Below are positions 7,162 through 16,213 of a stretch of DNA of 42,664 nt, piece after piece; the first letter of the stretch is position 1; each line of letters begins with the position of its first letter. The stretch spans positions 1-42,664 of the forward strand of contig JAQWOT010000034.1 in assembly GCA_029245725.1 (NCBI GenBank), written 5' to 3'. This DNA comes from SAR324 cluster bacterium. Lineage in GTDB: Bacteria; SAR324; NAC60-12. The notes beneath the pieces are model-generated. The model was not told the DNA's origin. It worked only from the letters and a program-made list of their open reading frames with translations, and searched no databases. The position numbers and the translations under genes were made by a program.

Positions 7162-7434
7162 TAAATCCTCTAACCCATTTGCCTGTGTCCCAATGAAGCC
7201 AAAGCCAATGATGCGAATTCTGCTGCTTCTCACCAGACAGTCTTTAATAGCAATTCCTAGTCGTCCATCCTATGATCGTAAGGGCTCAAAATGCTGATTA
7301 AATAAAGCCAAAAGGTATCAGCAAGTTCGTCCTATATCAATTTCAGCTGTGGTGCTACATTTTCACTATAGTTACGCCCGTGTCGATCCTTACGAGTTTT
7401 GCACACTCCGAAAATACCACTAAAGGTTCCTGTC

Positions 7435-7596
7435 ATGTCTCTCTCCAATTTTAATGAGGTCGCAGCAGAATTGTTGAAACTGTCCAAGGAGATCGAGCAA
7501 CTGCAAAAGCAATTGAATGAGGAGCAGCAACAGCGGTTGCAGATGGAGCAAACGATCCAGCAACTGTTGGACAAGCTAGGGCAGAAAAGGGAATAA
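7435..7596 (+). CDS. Small coiled-coil protein with N-terminal FNE motif (first of two)
   Basis: The ATG at 7435, with AAGG upstream, gives a 53-aa protein starting MSLSNFNEVAAELL. It is a single long amphipathic helix rich in Glu, Gln, Lys and Leu, with heptad-like spacing (LLKLSKEIEQLQKQLNEEQ), so a coiled coil is expected. A second gene 118 bp downstream begins MPITGFNELVGEL and shares the pattern of a short N-cap, FNE and then a helix. The pair probably arose by duplication and may bind each other. I know of no family name; a structural or adaptor role is a guess. Confidence 0.6.
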   Translation: MSLSNFNEVAAELLKLSKEIEQLQKQLNEEQQQRLQMEQTIQQLLDKLGQKRE

Positions 7597-7714: not shown

Positions 7715-7990
7715 ATGCCCATTACTGGATTCAACGAGCTAGTTGGGGAACTGAAACTGATGAGGGAGCAGTTCAAGGATCAGCAAGAGCGACAGGCAGT
7801 AGAACAATTGAAACGGGAGCAGTTGGAGTTGTGCATCGAAGATCTACAGCAGCAGATCTCAATGGAACAGCTCAAAAGGCAGCAATTAGAAACCTACATC
7901 AAAGAATTGCTCAGCAGACCCGGTAAGCTTCCTTTTGTGGATGAGTTGCCTGCTACAGCCACATTCTTCGAGGAGGTTTTTCAGAAGTAA
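7715..7990 (+). CDS. Small coiled-coil protein with N-terminal FNE motif (second of two)
   Basis: The start is the ATG at 7715, with AGGA upstream, giving 91 aa. After MPITGFNELVGEL comes a coiled coil with an internal repeat: VEQLKREQLELCIEDLQQQ is followed by MEQLKRQQLETYIKELLSR, a step of about 22 residues. A non-helical tail (PFVDELPATATFFEEVF) follows. Its N-terminus matches the 53-aa protein encoded just upstream. The tail is unique to this copy and could be a docking segment. Function unknown. Confidence 0.65.
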   Translation: MPITGFNELVGELKLMREQFKDQQERQAVEQLKREQLELCIEDLQQQISMEQLKRQQLETYIKELLSRPGKLPFVDELPATATFFEEVFQK

Positions 7991-9490: not shown

Positions 9491-9574
9491 TTGGAAGCTC
9501 ATCCGAATTGTGCCAGGCAAACTTTTCCTTCATTCTCTGCGGATTTAGTTCAACAATCCTCGGGAGAACTACCT

Positions 9575-9679
9575 ATGAATGAAGGTAGAAATTTCTTTGT
9601 GTGGCTCGTCTTCATGGTCGCAATATTTGTCACACTCGCGGTACTAGAAACACTTCTGGAGGTTCCAGATATTTCCTGA
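9575..9679 (+). CDS. 34-aa single-span membrane protein, first of two paralogues
   Basis: The protein starts MNEGRNFFVWLVFMVAIF, forms one transmembrane helix and ends LLEVPDIS. The start at 9575 is set by alignment to the second copy at 10089, where similarity begins exactly at this ATG, and by GGGAG just upstream. The frame is open further upstream to a TTG at 9491, but that part has no counterpart in the second copy. Twenty-six of 34 residues match the paralogue, and at least 13 codons differ only silently, so selection acts on the protein. Expected topology is a short polar N-terminus, one helix and an acidic C-terminal tail. Function unknown; small membrane proteins of this size often tune a transporter or respiratory complex. 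Confidence 0.75.
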   Translation: MNEGRNFFVWLVFMVAIFVTLAVLETLLEVPDIS

Positions 9680-9999
9680 ATAAATCCGCCGCAGATCCCA
9701 ATCATTACCCTACCGGACTCGCTAAGAACCATAACTTGCCAGACTTCACAATGGGTTGTGGTTCTTCGGTTCACCAATACCTCACTTCCTGCTCATTTCA
9801 CTTCTGTAGCTATTGCTCAAGTCTCCTGCTTTGAGAACACTGTGGCCCTGTTCATTGGTTTCACTACCCAGATAAGCAACTGACAAACCCAGTACTTCTG
9901 ATAGCTGGTGTGCTCTACGAGCTTTTATATTTAATTGCTGCGTAGTCTTAAAGATTCAGTGAAATCAGCCAATGCAGCAGATTTTTATAAAACAATCAC
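9680..9999. other. Gap between the two 34-aa genes
   Basis: No gene or strong structure is supported. The right end becomes AT-rich and leads into the promoter-like sequence at 10000. The two paralogues are therefore separately transcribed or loosely linked, not translationally coupled. Confidence 0.3.
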
Positions 10000-10030
10000 T
10001 TGACATTACTGACTAATAGGTTTCTATAAA
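10000..10030 (+). promoter_or_regulatory. Likely sigma-70 promoter of the second 34-aa gene
   Basis: A perfect -35 box TTGACA (10000-10005) is followed after 19 bases by TATAAA (10025-10030). The spacer is two bases longer than ideal. Transcription would start about 50 bases before the ATG at 10089. Confidence 0.4.
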
Positions 10031-10088
10031 TTTTTACTTAATTAACCGTATTATAACTTCAAATCCAAGAGAGTAGGAGTCAGTTATA

Positions 10089-10193
10089 ATGAATGACGGT
10101 AGAAACTTCTTTATCTGGCTCATCTTCATGGTGGCCATCTTCATTATTCTTGGTGTCCTCGAAACAGCCCTTGAAGTGCCAGACATCGGCTGA
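10089..10193 (+). CDS. 34-aa single-span membrane protein, second of two paralogues
   Basis: The protein starts MNDGRNFFIWLIFMVAIF and ends LEVPDIG, with the TGA at 10191-10193. AGGAG lies nine bases before the ATG at 10089, a strong ribosome site. One transmembrane helix is expected from about residue 7 to 25, followed by an acidic, Pro-containing tail (ETALEVPDIG) like that of copy one. Changes between the copies are conservative (Glu/Asp, Val/Ile) and most DNA differences are silent, the mark of two working genes. It has its own likely promoter at 10000. No known family is recognised. Confidence 0.8.
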   Translation: MNDGRNFFIWLIFMVAIFIILGVLETALEVPDIG

Positions 10194-10736: not shown

Positions 10737-11603
10737 ATGATTAATTACCAGTCTGACAAGCGCCTGAAGATCATTTTCGCCTACACAGGTACGGTGCTTC
10801 CACGAGTGATGCCCTACGTCTTTGCAATGATGTTGTGGTCTCTGGCCTTAATTTTATTTTTTGAGTTCACAGGACTTAGGTTCGAAATGAGCTCCCAAGC
10901 TCACTCAATTGTCGGGGTCGCGCTCGGGTTGTTATTGGTCTTTAGAACAAACACCTCCTACGACCGCTACTGGGAGGGGAGAAAGCAACTAGGTTCACTG
11001 TGCATCGGAGCCCGCAACTTGATGAATCAAGCCAATGCAGTGATTCCAGAGGAGGAGAAGGAATACCGGCAGCAGATCGGTATGCTATTAGCCGCTTTCA
11101 TGGGAGCAATGCGTGATGATTTGCGAGATGGAATCACCCTGAAATCGATGGGAAAGCTGACAGGACAGCTCCACCAGCGACTGAATCAGCACAGCAACAA
11201 GCTCAATGGTTTACTCAGCATGCTGAACACGGAACTGCGCTTAGGTGTTCGCAAGCGCTGGATGCATCCCTCGGAGTTTAACCCGATTGTTCAATCAATT
11301 GCTGATTTGCAAGCGGCTACACATGCCTTGAGAAGAATCCGTCAAACACCTTTGCCCTTCGCTTATGTGAACCAGCTCAAAGTGTTCATGGGGATTTATT
11401 TTGTCACTCTGCCCTTCGCCCTGATTCCCCAGTTTGGCTACATGACTTTAGTGATCATGGCCTTCTTCATCTATGCCTTGGTGGGTATCGAAGAGATCGG
11501 TCTCGAGATTGAAGATCCCTTTGGCGATGACCCCAACGACCTGCCCATCGTGCCGTTGACCAATGGTGTCATCAAGGACATCCAAGACGTTCTCGAACGC
11601 TAA
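10737..11603 (+). CDS. Bestrophin-family membrane channel (UPF0187 type)
   Basis: The 288-aa protein has the family landmarks: two N-terminal membrane segments (about residues 22-44 and 57-70), then LVFRTNTSYDRYWEGRK right after the second. A long cytoplasmic helical part follows, then two further membrane segments (about 215-245), and the acidic motif GIEEIGLEIEDPFGDDPNDLP (starting at about 247). Bacterial homologues form pentameric ion channels, chloride- or cation-conducting. The length is normal. The ATG at 10737 follows GAGAGAAG. The gene stands alone with a terminator-like hairpin 60 bp downstream, so it is probably monocistronic. Confidence 0.9.
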   Translation: MINYQSDKRLKIIFAYTGTVLPRVMPYVFAMMLWSLALILFFEFTGLRFEMSSQAHSIVGVALGLLLVFRTNTSYDRYWEGRKQLGSLCIGARNLMNQANAVIPEEEKEYRQQIGMLLAAFMGAMRDDLRDGITLKSMGKLTGQLHQRLNQHSNKLNGLLSMLNTELRLGVRKRWMHPSEFNPIVQSIADLQAATHALRRIRQTPLPFAYVNQLKVFMGIYFVTLPFALIPQFGYMTLVIMAFFIYALVGIEEIGLEIEDPFGDDPNDLPIVPLTNGVIKDIQDVLER

Positions 11604-12166: not shown

Positions 12167-15100
12167 ATGTCTGGGTTCCGCAATCTAGCCCTCATATCCC
12201 TCGCATGTTCTCTATTGCTCAACTCCAGTTGTGCCCCCACAGAAGATGAGGTGATTACTGCTGACAATGTTCAGCGAGAAGGCTCACCAGGAATCTTCCT
12301 AGACAGTGCTGTAGGTGGTGTTGATTACACGACTACCAGTGGTCTGGGTGGTGTAACGGATTCCAGCGGTCGCTTCTATTATAACCCCGGGGACAAGGTG
12401 AGTTTCACGATTGGTGGCATTTCACTGGGAAGTGTGACGGGAGCTGCCAAACTGACTCCGGTAGAGGTGATGGGTGCTAGTGGGACGGCTGACCAAAAGG
12501 TAATCAATCTTAGTCGACTACTGCAAACCTTGGATGCGGATGGAGATCCAAGCAATGGGATCAGTATCAATGATTCTACGAAGACGACTTTGGCAGCAAA
12601 GTCAGTGAATTTTGATGTCTCGGTGGATACATTTGATAATGCAACGAAGTCGGTGACAGCTGCAGTTGGGAAGACAATGGTCACAGCAACAAGGGCAATC
12701 AAGCACCTGCATAGCACACTCAATGATCAGGGCTTGGGCGATAAGGCAGCGAGTGATACGGAATTGCGGAGTGTCAGTTCAGAGCTGGATAACTTCACTA
12801 CTGTTGCAGCCAATTTTACGGTTAGTGAGAATGCGACTGCTTTAACAGAGGCAAGTGGCAGCTCACACACAGATAATTTTACAGTTGTGTTGGCCTCCGA
12901 GCCAGTTGGTAATGTGGTCTTTTCAGTGGTTCCCAGCGATGCAAGTGAAGTCTCTTCCTCTCCTTCCTCTCTGACGTTTAGTCCTGACAATTGGAGTACT
13001 GCCCAAACGGTCACTTTGACGGGAACAGACGACGAGATCAGTGATGGGGCCATTAGCAGTGCTGTCACAGTAGGAATCAATGAGAGTCAAACCAAAGACT
13101 CTGAATACGACAAGCTCACGAGTCATAGCATCTCGGCGACTACCAGTGATGACGAAGGAATTCCCTCTGTGACGCTGACTGCTGTGATAGTTAGCTTGGT
13201 GGAAAATGAGGAAACACTCACTTTGACAGTCAATATGAGTTTGGCCTCTGGTACAGATACCACTGTAGATTTCACTACCTCAGGGACTGCCAAACAAGAT
13301 GTAGACTATTCAATAACTCCTGACCCATTGATCATTCCAAGTGGAAGCAAGCAAGGTACGGTTACGGTCAAGAGCATCAATGACAAAATTGATGACGATG
13401 CTGAGACGATCATCATAGGGGTTGGTGCAGGGTCAATTTCTAACAGCGTTGGAGCGACGAACAACATTCAAGATGTAACGCTGACAATTAGTGATGATGA
13501 TACTGCTGGATTCCAACTCTCTAAGACGACAGCTGCTGTCACAGAAAGTGGAACTAAAGATACCTTCACAGTTGTACTGGATTCCAAGCCCACCCATGAT
13601 GTGATCGTGTCACTTACTTCTGATGATACTGGCGAGGCAGCCGTTTCTCCTGATAACTTGACGTTTACCTCAGAAGATTGGAACACCGCTCAAACGGTCA
13701 CAATTACAGGTGTGGCGGATGATCAAGTTGATAAGAATGCCACAAGCACAATCACAGTTTCTGTCAACAGCAGTGATACCAACTATGTTAGTAGCAAACT
13801 GTCAGCTAAAGAAGTAAAAGTAACTACTGCTGATGGGGATATAGCAGGCTTTAAACTCTCTGAAACTATAGTCACTGCAACAGAGGGGGGAGATAACGAC
13901 ACCTTCACGGTGGAACTGACTTCTAAACCAACTAGTGCAGTTACCATTGGAGTAGCTGGCTCCACAGAGGCTAGTATTTCACCAACTTCACTGAGCTTTG
14001 ATGCATCGGATTGGAAAATCCCCAAAACGGTAACAGTGATTGCGGTCAATGATTCGGTGGATGATGATCAGCAAACTAGTACAATCACGGTCTCTGTCAG
14101 CAGTTCCAGTGATTCCAAATACGGGAGTGGCATTGCTAATCAAAGTGTGAAAGCTACCACTAAAGATGATGATACTGCTGGTTTTACGCTTTCAAAAAAT
14201 ACAGCTACTGTGACCGAGGGAGGAGATTCAGATAACTTCACAGTAGTGCTGAATTCTCAGCCGACACAGGATGTTCTCCTGACTCTGACTGCCAATGATT
14301 CGACAGAGGTAAGCCTCTCTTCTTCCTCTACGCTGACCTTTACAAGCTCTGACTGGAATACCACAAAAACAGTGATTATTGCTGCTGTAGATGAAAATTT
14401 GGACGATGACAATATTACTAGTGCCGTCACGGTAGCAGCCAGCAGTACAAATGATGAGAAATATGATAATATTACTAATCAGACAGTTACCGTGACAACA
14501 GTGGATGATGACACTACTCCCTTAGTGACCCTGACAGCGGATAACTCATCGATGCTTGAGACCGGTGGTACCGTTATCCTTACAGTGAGCATGAGCACGG
14601 CTGCGACTAGTGAAACCACGGTGGCTCTATATGCTTCAGGTACAGCTGCAATCAATACAGATTACGAACTATCAAGCACGACCCTGACTATCTATGCGGA
14701 TAATACAACTGCCACTGCTACGCTGACAGGTATTTCAGATCAGTTTGTGGAAGGTTCAGAATCTATTGTGGTGGATATCAGCGGTGTCTCTGGTGGTAAT
14801 GGTGCTAGAAAAAGTGGTACCCAGCAGCAGTTAATCACGATCACAGATGATGATAACGCGACAGTGACGATTGCAGATGTAATTGCGCTGGAGAGTGCTG
14901 GTACAGCAACAGTCACACTGAGCCTAAACAATGCAGTGGCTGGTGGTTTTAAAGTAGGAGTTGCCACTACCGATGGCACCGCAACAGCGGGCTCAGACTA
15001 CACAGCCCTAAGCTCTACAGAGCCTTTTGCAGGCAGTGCTGGTGAGACTGTGCAGGTAAGCATCACCTTAGGTAGTGACTCCATAGTAGAAGACAATGAG

Positions 15101-16213
15101 ACGATTACAATCAGCATGAGCAACGCCAGCAACACTGGGGTCATTGTTACAGATACGGCGACGTTGACGATCACAGATGATGACATGGCTGGCTTTAGTC
15201 TAGCCAATACAACAGCTTCGGTTTCAGAGACTGGTACGAGCAGTAGTACTTCAGTAGTTTTGACGAGTGAACCGACAGCGAATGTGACCTTGACGCTATC
15301 GGATAATGACACGAGCGAGGTGATCTATCCGACGAGTGTTGTTTTTGGTAGTGGGAACTGGTCGACTTCTCAGACAATTACGTTGACTGGCAAAGACGAC
15401 AATGTGAGTGATGGTAGTCAGACGACGCTATTGACTCTGACACCGAGTGGAGGAGGCTACAGTGGATTGTCTTCCCAGACGTTGACGGTGACGACGGCAG
15501 ACAACGACACGGTTGGCTTTAGTTTATCTGGTACAACAGCTTCGGTTTCAGAGACTGGTACGAGCAGTAGTATTTCGGTAGTTTTGACGAGTGAACCGAC
15601 AGCGAATGTGACCTTGACGCTATCGGATAATGACACGAGCGAGGTGATCTATCCGATGAGTGTTGTTTTTGGTAGTGGGAACTGGTCGACTTCTCAGACA
15701 ATTACGTTGACTGGCAAAGATGATGAAATCGTTGATGATAGCCAGATGACGCTATTGACTCTGACACCGAGTGGAGGAGACTACAGTGGACTGTCTTCCC
15801 AGACGTTGACGGTTACCACGACAGATAATGACACAGCCACAGTGAAGATTGACAATGTGAGCGTGAATGAAGGAGATAATGCAACGATTACGCTGAGTGT
15901 TGATCTGGAAGTAGTAGGTGGATTTACCGTTAATGTTTCAACAGCTAATGGAACCGCAACAGGAGGTGTAGATTACACGGCAGTCAGTTCCCAGCTGATA
16001 ACTTTCACAGGGGGGACAGCTGGAGAGACCCAAACCTTAAATGTTGTGACAGCTTCAGATAATGATAACGAAGTTGCCGAAACGTTCTCGATCTCTATGA
16101 GCAACTCTAGTAAGAGTTCTGTTTTAGTGACGGATAACGCAACAGTAACGATTGTTAATATCAATGGTGGTGGTTCTGGTAGTGGTGGTTCTGGTGGTAG
16201 TGGTAAACCCTAA
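12167..16213 (+). CDS. Large Calx-beta-repeat surface lipoprotein
   Basis: The 1348-aa protein starts with a lipoprotein-type signal (LLLNSSC, Cys near residue 23). Residues of about 40-180 form a domain common in marine bacterial lipoproteins, beginning GIFLDSAVGGVDYTT. About ten repeats of roughly 108-115 residues follow, most ending in TxDDD or TxDND. Four are canonical Calx-beta domains with GTA...DY motifs (for example TTDGTATAGSDYTA). The others are a related type with SxPTxxV and DWNT motifs. Acidic loops suggest calcium binding. Repeats 8 and 9 are nearly identical. The chain ends in a Gly/Ser tail (GGGSGSGGSGG) with no sorting domain that I know. GGAG precedes the ATG. The likely role is adhesion or a surface stalk, as for other Calx-beta proteins. 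Confidence 0.85.
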   Translation: MSGFRNLALISLACSLLLNSSCAPTEDEVITADNVQREGSPGIFLDSAVGGVDYTTTSGLGGVTDSSGRFYYNPGDKVSFTIGGISLGSVTGAAKLTPVEVMGASGTADQKVINLSRLLQTLDADGDPSNGISINDSTKTTLAAKSVNFDVSVDTFDNATKSVTAAVGKTMVTATRAIKHLHSTLNDQGLGDKAASDTELRSVSSELDNFTTVAANFTVSENATALTEASGSSHTDNFTVVLASEPVGNVVFSVVPSDASEVSSSPSSLTFSPDNWSTAQTVTLTGTDDEISDGAISSAVTVGINESQTKDSEYDKLTSHSISATTSDDEGIPSVTLTAVIVSLVENEETLTLTVNMSLASGTDTTVDFTTSGTAKQDVDYSITPDPLIIPSGSKQGTVTVKSINDKIDDDAETIIIGVGAGSISNSVGATNNIQDVTLTISDDDTAGFQLSKTTAAVTESGTKDTFTVVLDSKPTHDVIVSLTSDDTGEAAVSPDNLTFTSEDWNTAQTVTITGVADDQVDKNATSTITVSVNSSDTNYVSSKLSAKEVKVTTADGDIAGFKLSETIVTATEGGDNDTFTVELTSKPTSAVTIGVAGSTEASISPTSLSFDASDWKIPKTVTVIAVNDSVDDDQQTSTITVSVSSSSDSKYGSGIANQSVKATTKDDDTAGFTLSKNTATVTEGGDSDNFTVVLNSQPTQDVLLTLTANDSTEVSLSSSSTLTFTSSDWNTTKTVIIAAVDENLDDDNITSAVTVAASSTNDEKYDNITNQTVTVTTVDDDTTPLVTLTADNSSMLETGGTVILTVSMSTAATSETTVALYASGTAAINTDYELSSTTLTIYADNTTATATLTGISDQFVEGSESIVVDISGVSGGNGARKSGTQQQLITITDDDNATVTIADVIALESAGTATVTLSLNNAVAGGFKVGVATTDGTATAGSDYTALSSTEPFAGSAGETVQVSITLGSDSIVEDNETITISMSNASNTGVIVTDTATLTITDDDMAGFSLANTTASVSETGTSSSTSVVLTSEPTANVTLTLSDNDTSEVIYPTSVVFGSGNWSTSQTITLTGKDDNVSDGSQTTLLTLTPSGGGYSGLSSQTLTVTTADNDTVGFSLSGTTASVSETGTSSSISVVLTSEPTANVTLTLSDNDTSEVIYPMSVVFGSGNWSTSQTITLTGKDDEIVDDSQMTLLTLTPSGGDYSGLSSQTLTVTTTDNDTATVKIDNVSVNEGDNATITLSVDLEVVGGFTVNVSTANGTATGGVDYTAVSSQLITFTGGTAGETQTLNVVTASDNDNEVAETFSISMSNSSKSSVLVTDNATVTIVNINGGGSGSGGSGGSGKP
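15188..15835 (+). repeat. Two near-identical 324-bp tandem units inside the Calx-beta gene
   Basis: Units 15188-15511 and 15512-15835 encode repeats 8 and 9. Over long stretches, such as that around TTCGGTTTCAGAGACTGGTA, they are almost base-for-base identical, while the other repeats in the gene have diverged strongly. This points to a recent duplication or gene conversion, and the copy number could vary by recombination. Confidence 0.75.

Follow-up and report, generated by a model that had tools for sequence, protein, structure and literature searches.

The window, a stretch of 42,664 nucleotides from a SAR324 cluster bacterium, carries on its forward strand two very small genes, A (9575-9679, ATG 9575 to TGA 9679) and B (10089-10193, ATG 10089 to TGA 10193), which encode proteins of 34 amino acids (MNEGRNFFVWLVFMVAIFVTLAVLETLLEVPDIS and MNDGRNFFIWLIFMVAIFIILGVLETALEVPDIG, respectively, as read from the window), each with a single predicted transmembrane helix, which in A should be oriented N-in/C-out. 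Annotation usually overlooks genes of 33-40 codons. Re-reading the sequence bore out the initial description of these twins, with 34 codons each, starts 514 bp apart, 26 of 34 residues identical, and 13 silent codon differences (counted by eye); by the NG86 method, the differences between A and B amount to 17.5 synonymous (23 sites) and 10.5 nonsynonymous (79 sites). Both frames are also preceded, as had been proposed, by a ribosome-binding site on the same strand: GGGAGA for A (9562-9567), conserved in most relatives, and AGGAG for B (10075-10079), conserved as well. The promoter suggested for B (10000-10030, forward strand) held up only in part. Both hexamers are present (TTGACA at 10000-10005 and, after a 19-nt spacer, TATAAA at 10025-10030). 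The aligned relatives retain the TTGACA block, CACTTGACATTACTGA, in a stretch that is otherwise not conserved in the most distant genome, G005, but they do not retain the TATAAA. A generic promoter scan did not call this TTGACA/TATAAA pair. Just after A lies a forward-strand hairpin (9724-9766, arms 9724-9735 and 9755-9766), a possible transcript end without a U run, both arms of which are conserved in six genomes around a variable loop, with one U-G to C-G change that keeps the pair. The two genes seem to form separate transcription units, and each is probably transcribed on its own.

When 58 genomes were searched with the protein, all six members of the genus proved to carry both frames, in the same order and at the same position, and the other genera among them gave no comparable match. 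Across the six orthologues, variable sites fall at first, second, and third codon positions in the numbers 2/2/18 for A (Fisher p=1.6e-7) and 1/0/18 for B (Fisher p=7.6e-10). Rather than near 1, dN/dS (NG86) is 0.03 for A and 0.008 for B. A and B are conserved coding genes, not chance frames. The dS separating the twins is about 2.5 and saturated (NG86), so their duplication is old, not recent. Around the two frames, conservation is limited to short leaders, the hairpin after A, and the promoter-like block before B. The original prediction of real, translated-looking, duplicated, single-span proteins under strong purifying selection, with no known family to match them, thus stands, although it understated the duplication, since the window's own genome has about 11 copies and not two.

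A profile search (E below 1e-10) counted 11 copies there, spread over nine places; in the other five genomes of the genus, most of them less complete, there are 5-9 copies per genome. The family comprises about ten subfamilies of 33-40 residues, including, apart from A and B, C and D (two copies on G000:C253), E (C204), F (C362), G (C276), K (G004:C81), H (C358, 40 aa), I (C319, 40 aa), and J (C277 and C98, 36 aa). Wherever a subfamily has enough copies, purifying selection on the protein is seen (omega 0.008-0.23; 0.13-0.23 in F, H, I, and J). The family core reads R-N-x-x-x-W ... L-x-V-L-E-x-x-L-x-V-P. L24 and E25 are invariant in the 13 representatives compared and W10, L21, V30, and P31 are near-invariant across diverged paralogues, which implies a binding surface and not mere hydrophobicity. 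Several copies look decayed, indicating that the family is subject to birth and death: the second copy on G000:C253 has changed W to S and E to Q, two copies in G003 contain internal stops (C309) or lack a start codon (C300), and the start codon of F is lost in G004. In F, an inverted repeat (GGGAGGTCTC-TACA-GAGACTTCCC in L031) lies shortly before the start codon, with no clear ribosome site there (L031, L020, and L023 for both observations).

Outside the genus, the profile search showed 46 other genomes of the class to lack the family, the weak matches in them (E about 0.01-0.05) being partial, mostly inside longer frames, and taken as chance. A degenerate DNA pattern searched against 84,980 species genomes hit five assemblies only, at positions that agree with the sister-genome loci. 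Phages, plasmids, and viral contigs contained no family match, and we rejected a mobile or phage origin on this basis. Neither Pfam, NCBIfam, PHROGs, nor PDB offered a credible relative; the best Pfam match, to a Babuvirus (plant virus) movement protein, had an E of 8e-4, below that model's own cut-off, and was dismissed as a chance hydrophobic-helix match, and the CydX/YbgT oxidase subunit family was not listed when 20 members were scanned against Pfam at E up to 5. The safest statement is that these single-span membrane microproteins make up a new family, restricted to one genus and present in multiple copies. Its kind is already known, because small-protein families confined to a single genus are common: of the GMSC families with at least three members, more than half are genus-specific (PMC11364881). 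The present family resembles those in its restriction to one genus and differs from them in its strong multi-copy amplification, its shared promoter element, and the structured RNA linked to one branch; copy number, shared promoter, and RNA are its unusual part.

The bestrophin family channel gene that follows the twins (10737-11603, forward strand; PF25539, E 2.6e-69) had been put forward as a possible partner. It does come next wherever the contig continues, in G000, G001, and G004 and, with only its start, in G002. Nevertheless, bestrophins at about 52% identity occur in three genomes of two other genera (G007, G012, and G013), all without the microprotein, and none lies alongside the other family loci examined, so that a consistent co-occurrence with bestrophin genes was not borne out and, on this distribution, the channel is not supported as the partner. 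On the upstream side, a gene for a 91-aa coiled-coil-like small protein (7715-7990, forward strand) neighbours A in six of six genomes; together with 7399-7596 it forms a pair of small coiled-coil-like proteins with similar starts (MPITGFNELVGEL and MSLSNFNEVAAEL, respectively). The window also encodes a putative surface protein of 1348 aa with repeated similar blocks (12167-16213), and its orthologues beside bestrophin are longer in G001 and G004 (at least 1799 and 1992 aa). No partner gene was common to the family loci examined, where neighbours differ by locus: an MFS transporter with a pentapeptide gene, caspase and pentapeptide genes, a NOV_C protein, a Rieske protein, and, by our own reading, an ABC-transporter-like cluster and NTF2-like genes (only a weak DUF4440 match). 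Three family places in G000 (C253, C204, and C358) are near a pentapeptide-repeat gene. This 4.4-Mb genome has 131 pentapeptide domain matches, in roughly 35-40 genes by our estimate, and we set the association aside as a suggestive enrichment only, perhaps due to shared accessory islands.

Subfamilies H, I, and J share a promoter-like element, CTCCCCC-N3-TGTCCTCCGAG, 91-96 bp before their ATG, with -10-like hexamers exactly 17 nt after it (TAGGTT, CATACT, and TATACT). A genome search with the element, which was derived from H, I, and J only, led to two non-homologous, conserved small-protein genes, M (58 aa with two hydrophobic stretches; L098:1612-1788, forward strand) and N (76 aa; L092:1593-1823, forward strand), both with strong ribosome sites and located 90-111 bp downstream of the element. 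A stricter pattern gave 16 matches in the six genomes, 15 of them preceding H, I, J, M, or N, and its reversed control gave no match in the same six; the remaining one precedes, by 144 bp from the motif at 1501 of L141 in G005, a pentapeptide-repeat gene without obvious signal peptide. We considered that the C-rich element might act as an anti-Shine-Dalgarno leader switch, as its TCCTCC is complementary to the ribosome site, with good pairing in N and M. What disfavours this is the -10-like hexamer, which in H, I, J, M, and N follows the element at a distance of exactly 17 nt and makes it more likely that the element lies upstream of the transcript. Its sharing by H, I, J, and two unrelated small-protein genes implies controlled expression of a set of small proteins. 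A and B do not have this element. Family copies stand under at least two kinds of promoter region.

A second feature of this branch is a structured RNA element of about 155 nt, located on the same strand directly 3' of the H, I, and J2 frames, with 12 intact copies (L072:4747-4901, forward; L070:579-735, reverse; L044:8556-8714, forward; and 10 more places when a decayed copy is counted). It folds into a 13-pair long-range stem and three inner helices, with 92.5% of cells paired, a percentage that leans in favour of the structure because we drew it from the same sequences; two-sided changes occur in 18 cells, compared with 7.1 in shuffles and 2-6 after sliding the structure. As no Rfam family matched there, it is apparently an undescribed, covarying structured RNA. 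A covariance model, built from 12 of the 13 H/I/J2 places that it found, one of which is a decayed H copy, never detected the RNA at A-G or in the window. One weak copy follows an unrelated gene (L088:1380-1534, reverse strand), and the J1 copies (G000:C277 and G003:C175) do not have the element. At J1 (L071:1079-1341, reverse, and L079:3056-3318, forward), a second small, probably single-span frame replaces the RNA (MVVGFGVVFPYFVGLVTYLVLRAYAEHLKRKELAKGQVEAEIPTS in G000). The link between RNA and microprotein is, consequently, not strict. We regard as tentative, and somewhat doubtful, the possibility that one private promoter drives a set of membrane microproteins comprising H, I, J, and two unrelated ones, most H/I/J transcripts carrying the new RNA and the RNA-less A and B standing under separate control. 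If so, this would be an RNA-linked set of small membrane regulators unlike the toxin-antitoxin or dual-function RNA systems described.

Concerning the protein itself, AlphaFold2 predicted for B alone one helix spanning residues 3-28 (mean pLDDT 88.8), and the best 19-residue hydrophobic window of the members usually starts near residue 7. With fewer than 50 codons, conserved coding sequence, and one predicted transmembrane helix, they share these traits with the single-span small membrane proteins that act on complexes. The position of R5 before the hydrophobic stretch and of E25, E29, and D32 after it suggests, by the positive-inside rule, an N-in, C-out topology. The net charge of the members (-3 to 0) argues against antimicrobial peptides. 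Small proteins such as AcrZ, CydX, KdpF, and MgrB work as accessory or regulatory subunits of membrane complexes, and our preferred reading, to which we give about an even chance, is that the twins are old paralogues within a family of small accessory or regulatory subunits that serve inner-membrane complexes under specific conditions, although not members of those known families. The N-terminus would be cytoplasmic, with R5, and the acidic C-terminus outside; the helix would lie side-on against larger membrane complexes, binding them by W10 and by the L21-x-V-L-E25-x-x-L-x-V-P31 end; and the paralogues would be exchangeable subunits made under different conditions. Selection at the protein level, the binding-surface residues, the high-confidence helix, the apparently separate transcription units of A and B, the H/I/J promoter element, and the constant location of A and B across six genomes all support such a role. 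Against it, about 11 copies is unusual for a dedicated subunit, neighbours vary by locus, some copies are decayed, and conservation does not trace a clean helical face (one-sidedness not significant, p=0.16). The family resembles the AcrZ/CydX/KdpF/MgrB/SgrT type in length (about 30-50 aa), in the single helix that most of them have, and in conserved membrane-edge residues, and differs in having no Pfam or NCBIfam match, about 11 paralogues per genome, and a range of one genus.

The main rival to the subunit reading is a type I toxin, that is, a short hydrophobic peptide made when its antisense RNA is lost, damaging the membrane, and amplified in tandem and dispersed copies as in Ldr and Ibs. 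The members are indeed small, hydrophobic, single-span peptides according to hydropathy and AlphaFold2, and their many intergenic single-gene copies, the tandem pair, and the decaying copies recall ldr and ibs; in E. coli, Ldr has 35 aa and four repeats, three of them in tandem, and Ibs has five copies (PMC4147584). HokB is likewise N-in with a negatively charged C-terminus outside (PMC8309996), a topology that in our family is predicted. The structured RNA after the 12 intact H, I, and J2 copies might also evoke a toxin locus, but it lies on the same strand and A-G do not have it. Scans of Pfam and NCBIfam retrieved no curated type I toxin model (Hok, Ldr, Ibs, TisB, or Fst), the net charge is unlike that of most such toxins, and the W...VLE..L.VP motif is conserved in the family; charge pattern and motif both set it apart from Ldr and Ibs, as does the lack of an evident antisense gene at A and B. 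Unlike Hok and HokB, A and B have no cysteines, match no Pfam model, and show no evident overlapping leader frame. At the twin locus, sequence conservation goes no further than the frames with the leaders just before them, a single hairpin, and a single promoter block. The roughly 170 bp between A and B are unconserved in G005, which leaves little room for a conserved antitoxin gene, and dS for the twins shows no special reduction relative to the adjacent 91-aa gene, so that an overlapping antisense RNA is not evident. On balance, we consider a toxin unlikely.

Two further explanations bear on parts of the same evidence. In the H/I/J branch the RNA could be the main actor, within a dual-function transcript combining a small protein and a structured regulatory RNA, A-G being relatives with the protein only. 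SgrS/SgrT is a dual-function RNA of this kind. The long-range stem with its three helices and the excess of two-sided changes over shuffles would fit, and so would the comparison of I with J loci, where the RNA is 78% identical over about 150 nt and more conserved than the reading frames. Yet J1 does without the RNA, a weak copy follows a different gene, and nothing about the twins would be explained, which makes this an improbable account. Alternatively, the twins could be the small subunit of one specific known complex, such as a terminal oxidase, a transporter, or a channel, for example the neighbouring bestrophin. Oxidases and transporters have many single-span subunits of about this size, and in each of the four genomes with a continuing contig the gene after the twins is bestrophin. 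The bestrophins of other genera without a microprotein, their absence from other family loci, and the failure of Pfam and PDB to match any known small subunit weigh the other way, and we hold such an assignment to be very doubtful.

These microproteins, whose sequences are clearly under selection, can be traced in an uncultured lineage through about ten subfamilies and six genomes. They are, for this reason, a good test case of how tiny membrane proteins become multiplied and specialised in bacteria. In one branch, the shared promoter element and the linked RNA provide handles (a regulator, an RNA, and a partner) on the function of such small proteins.
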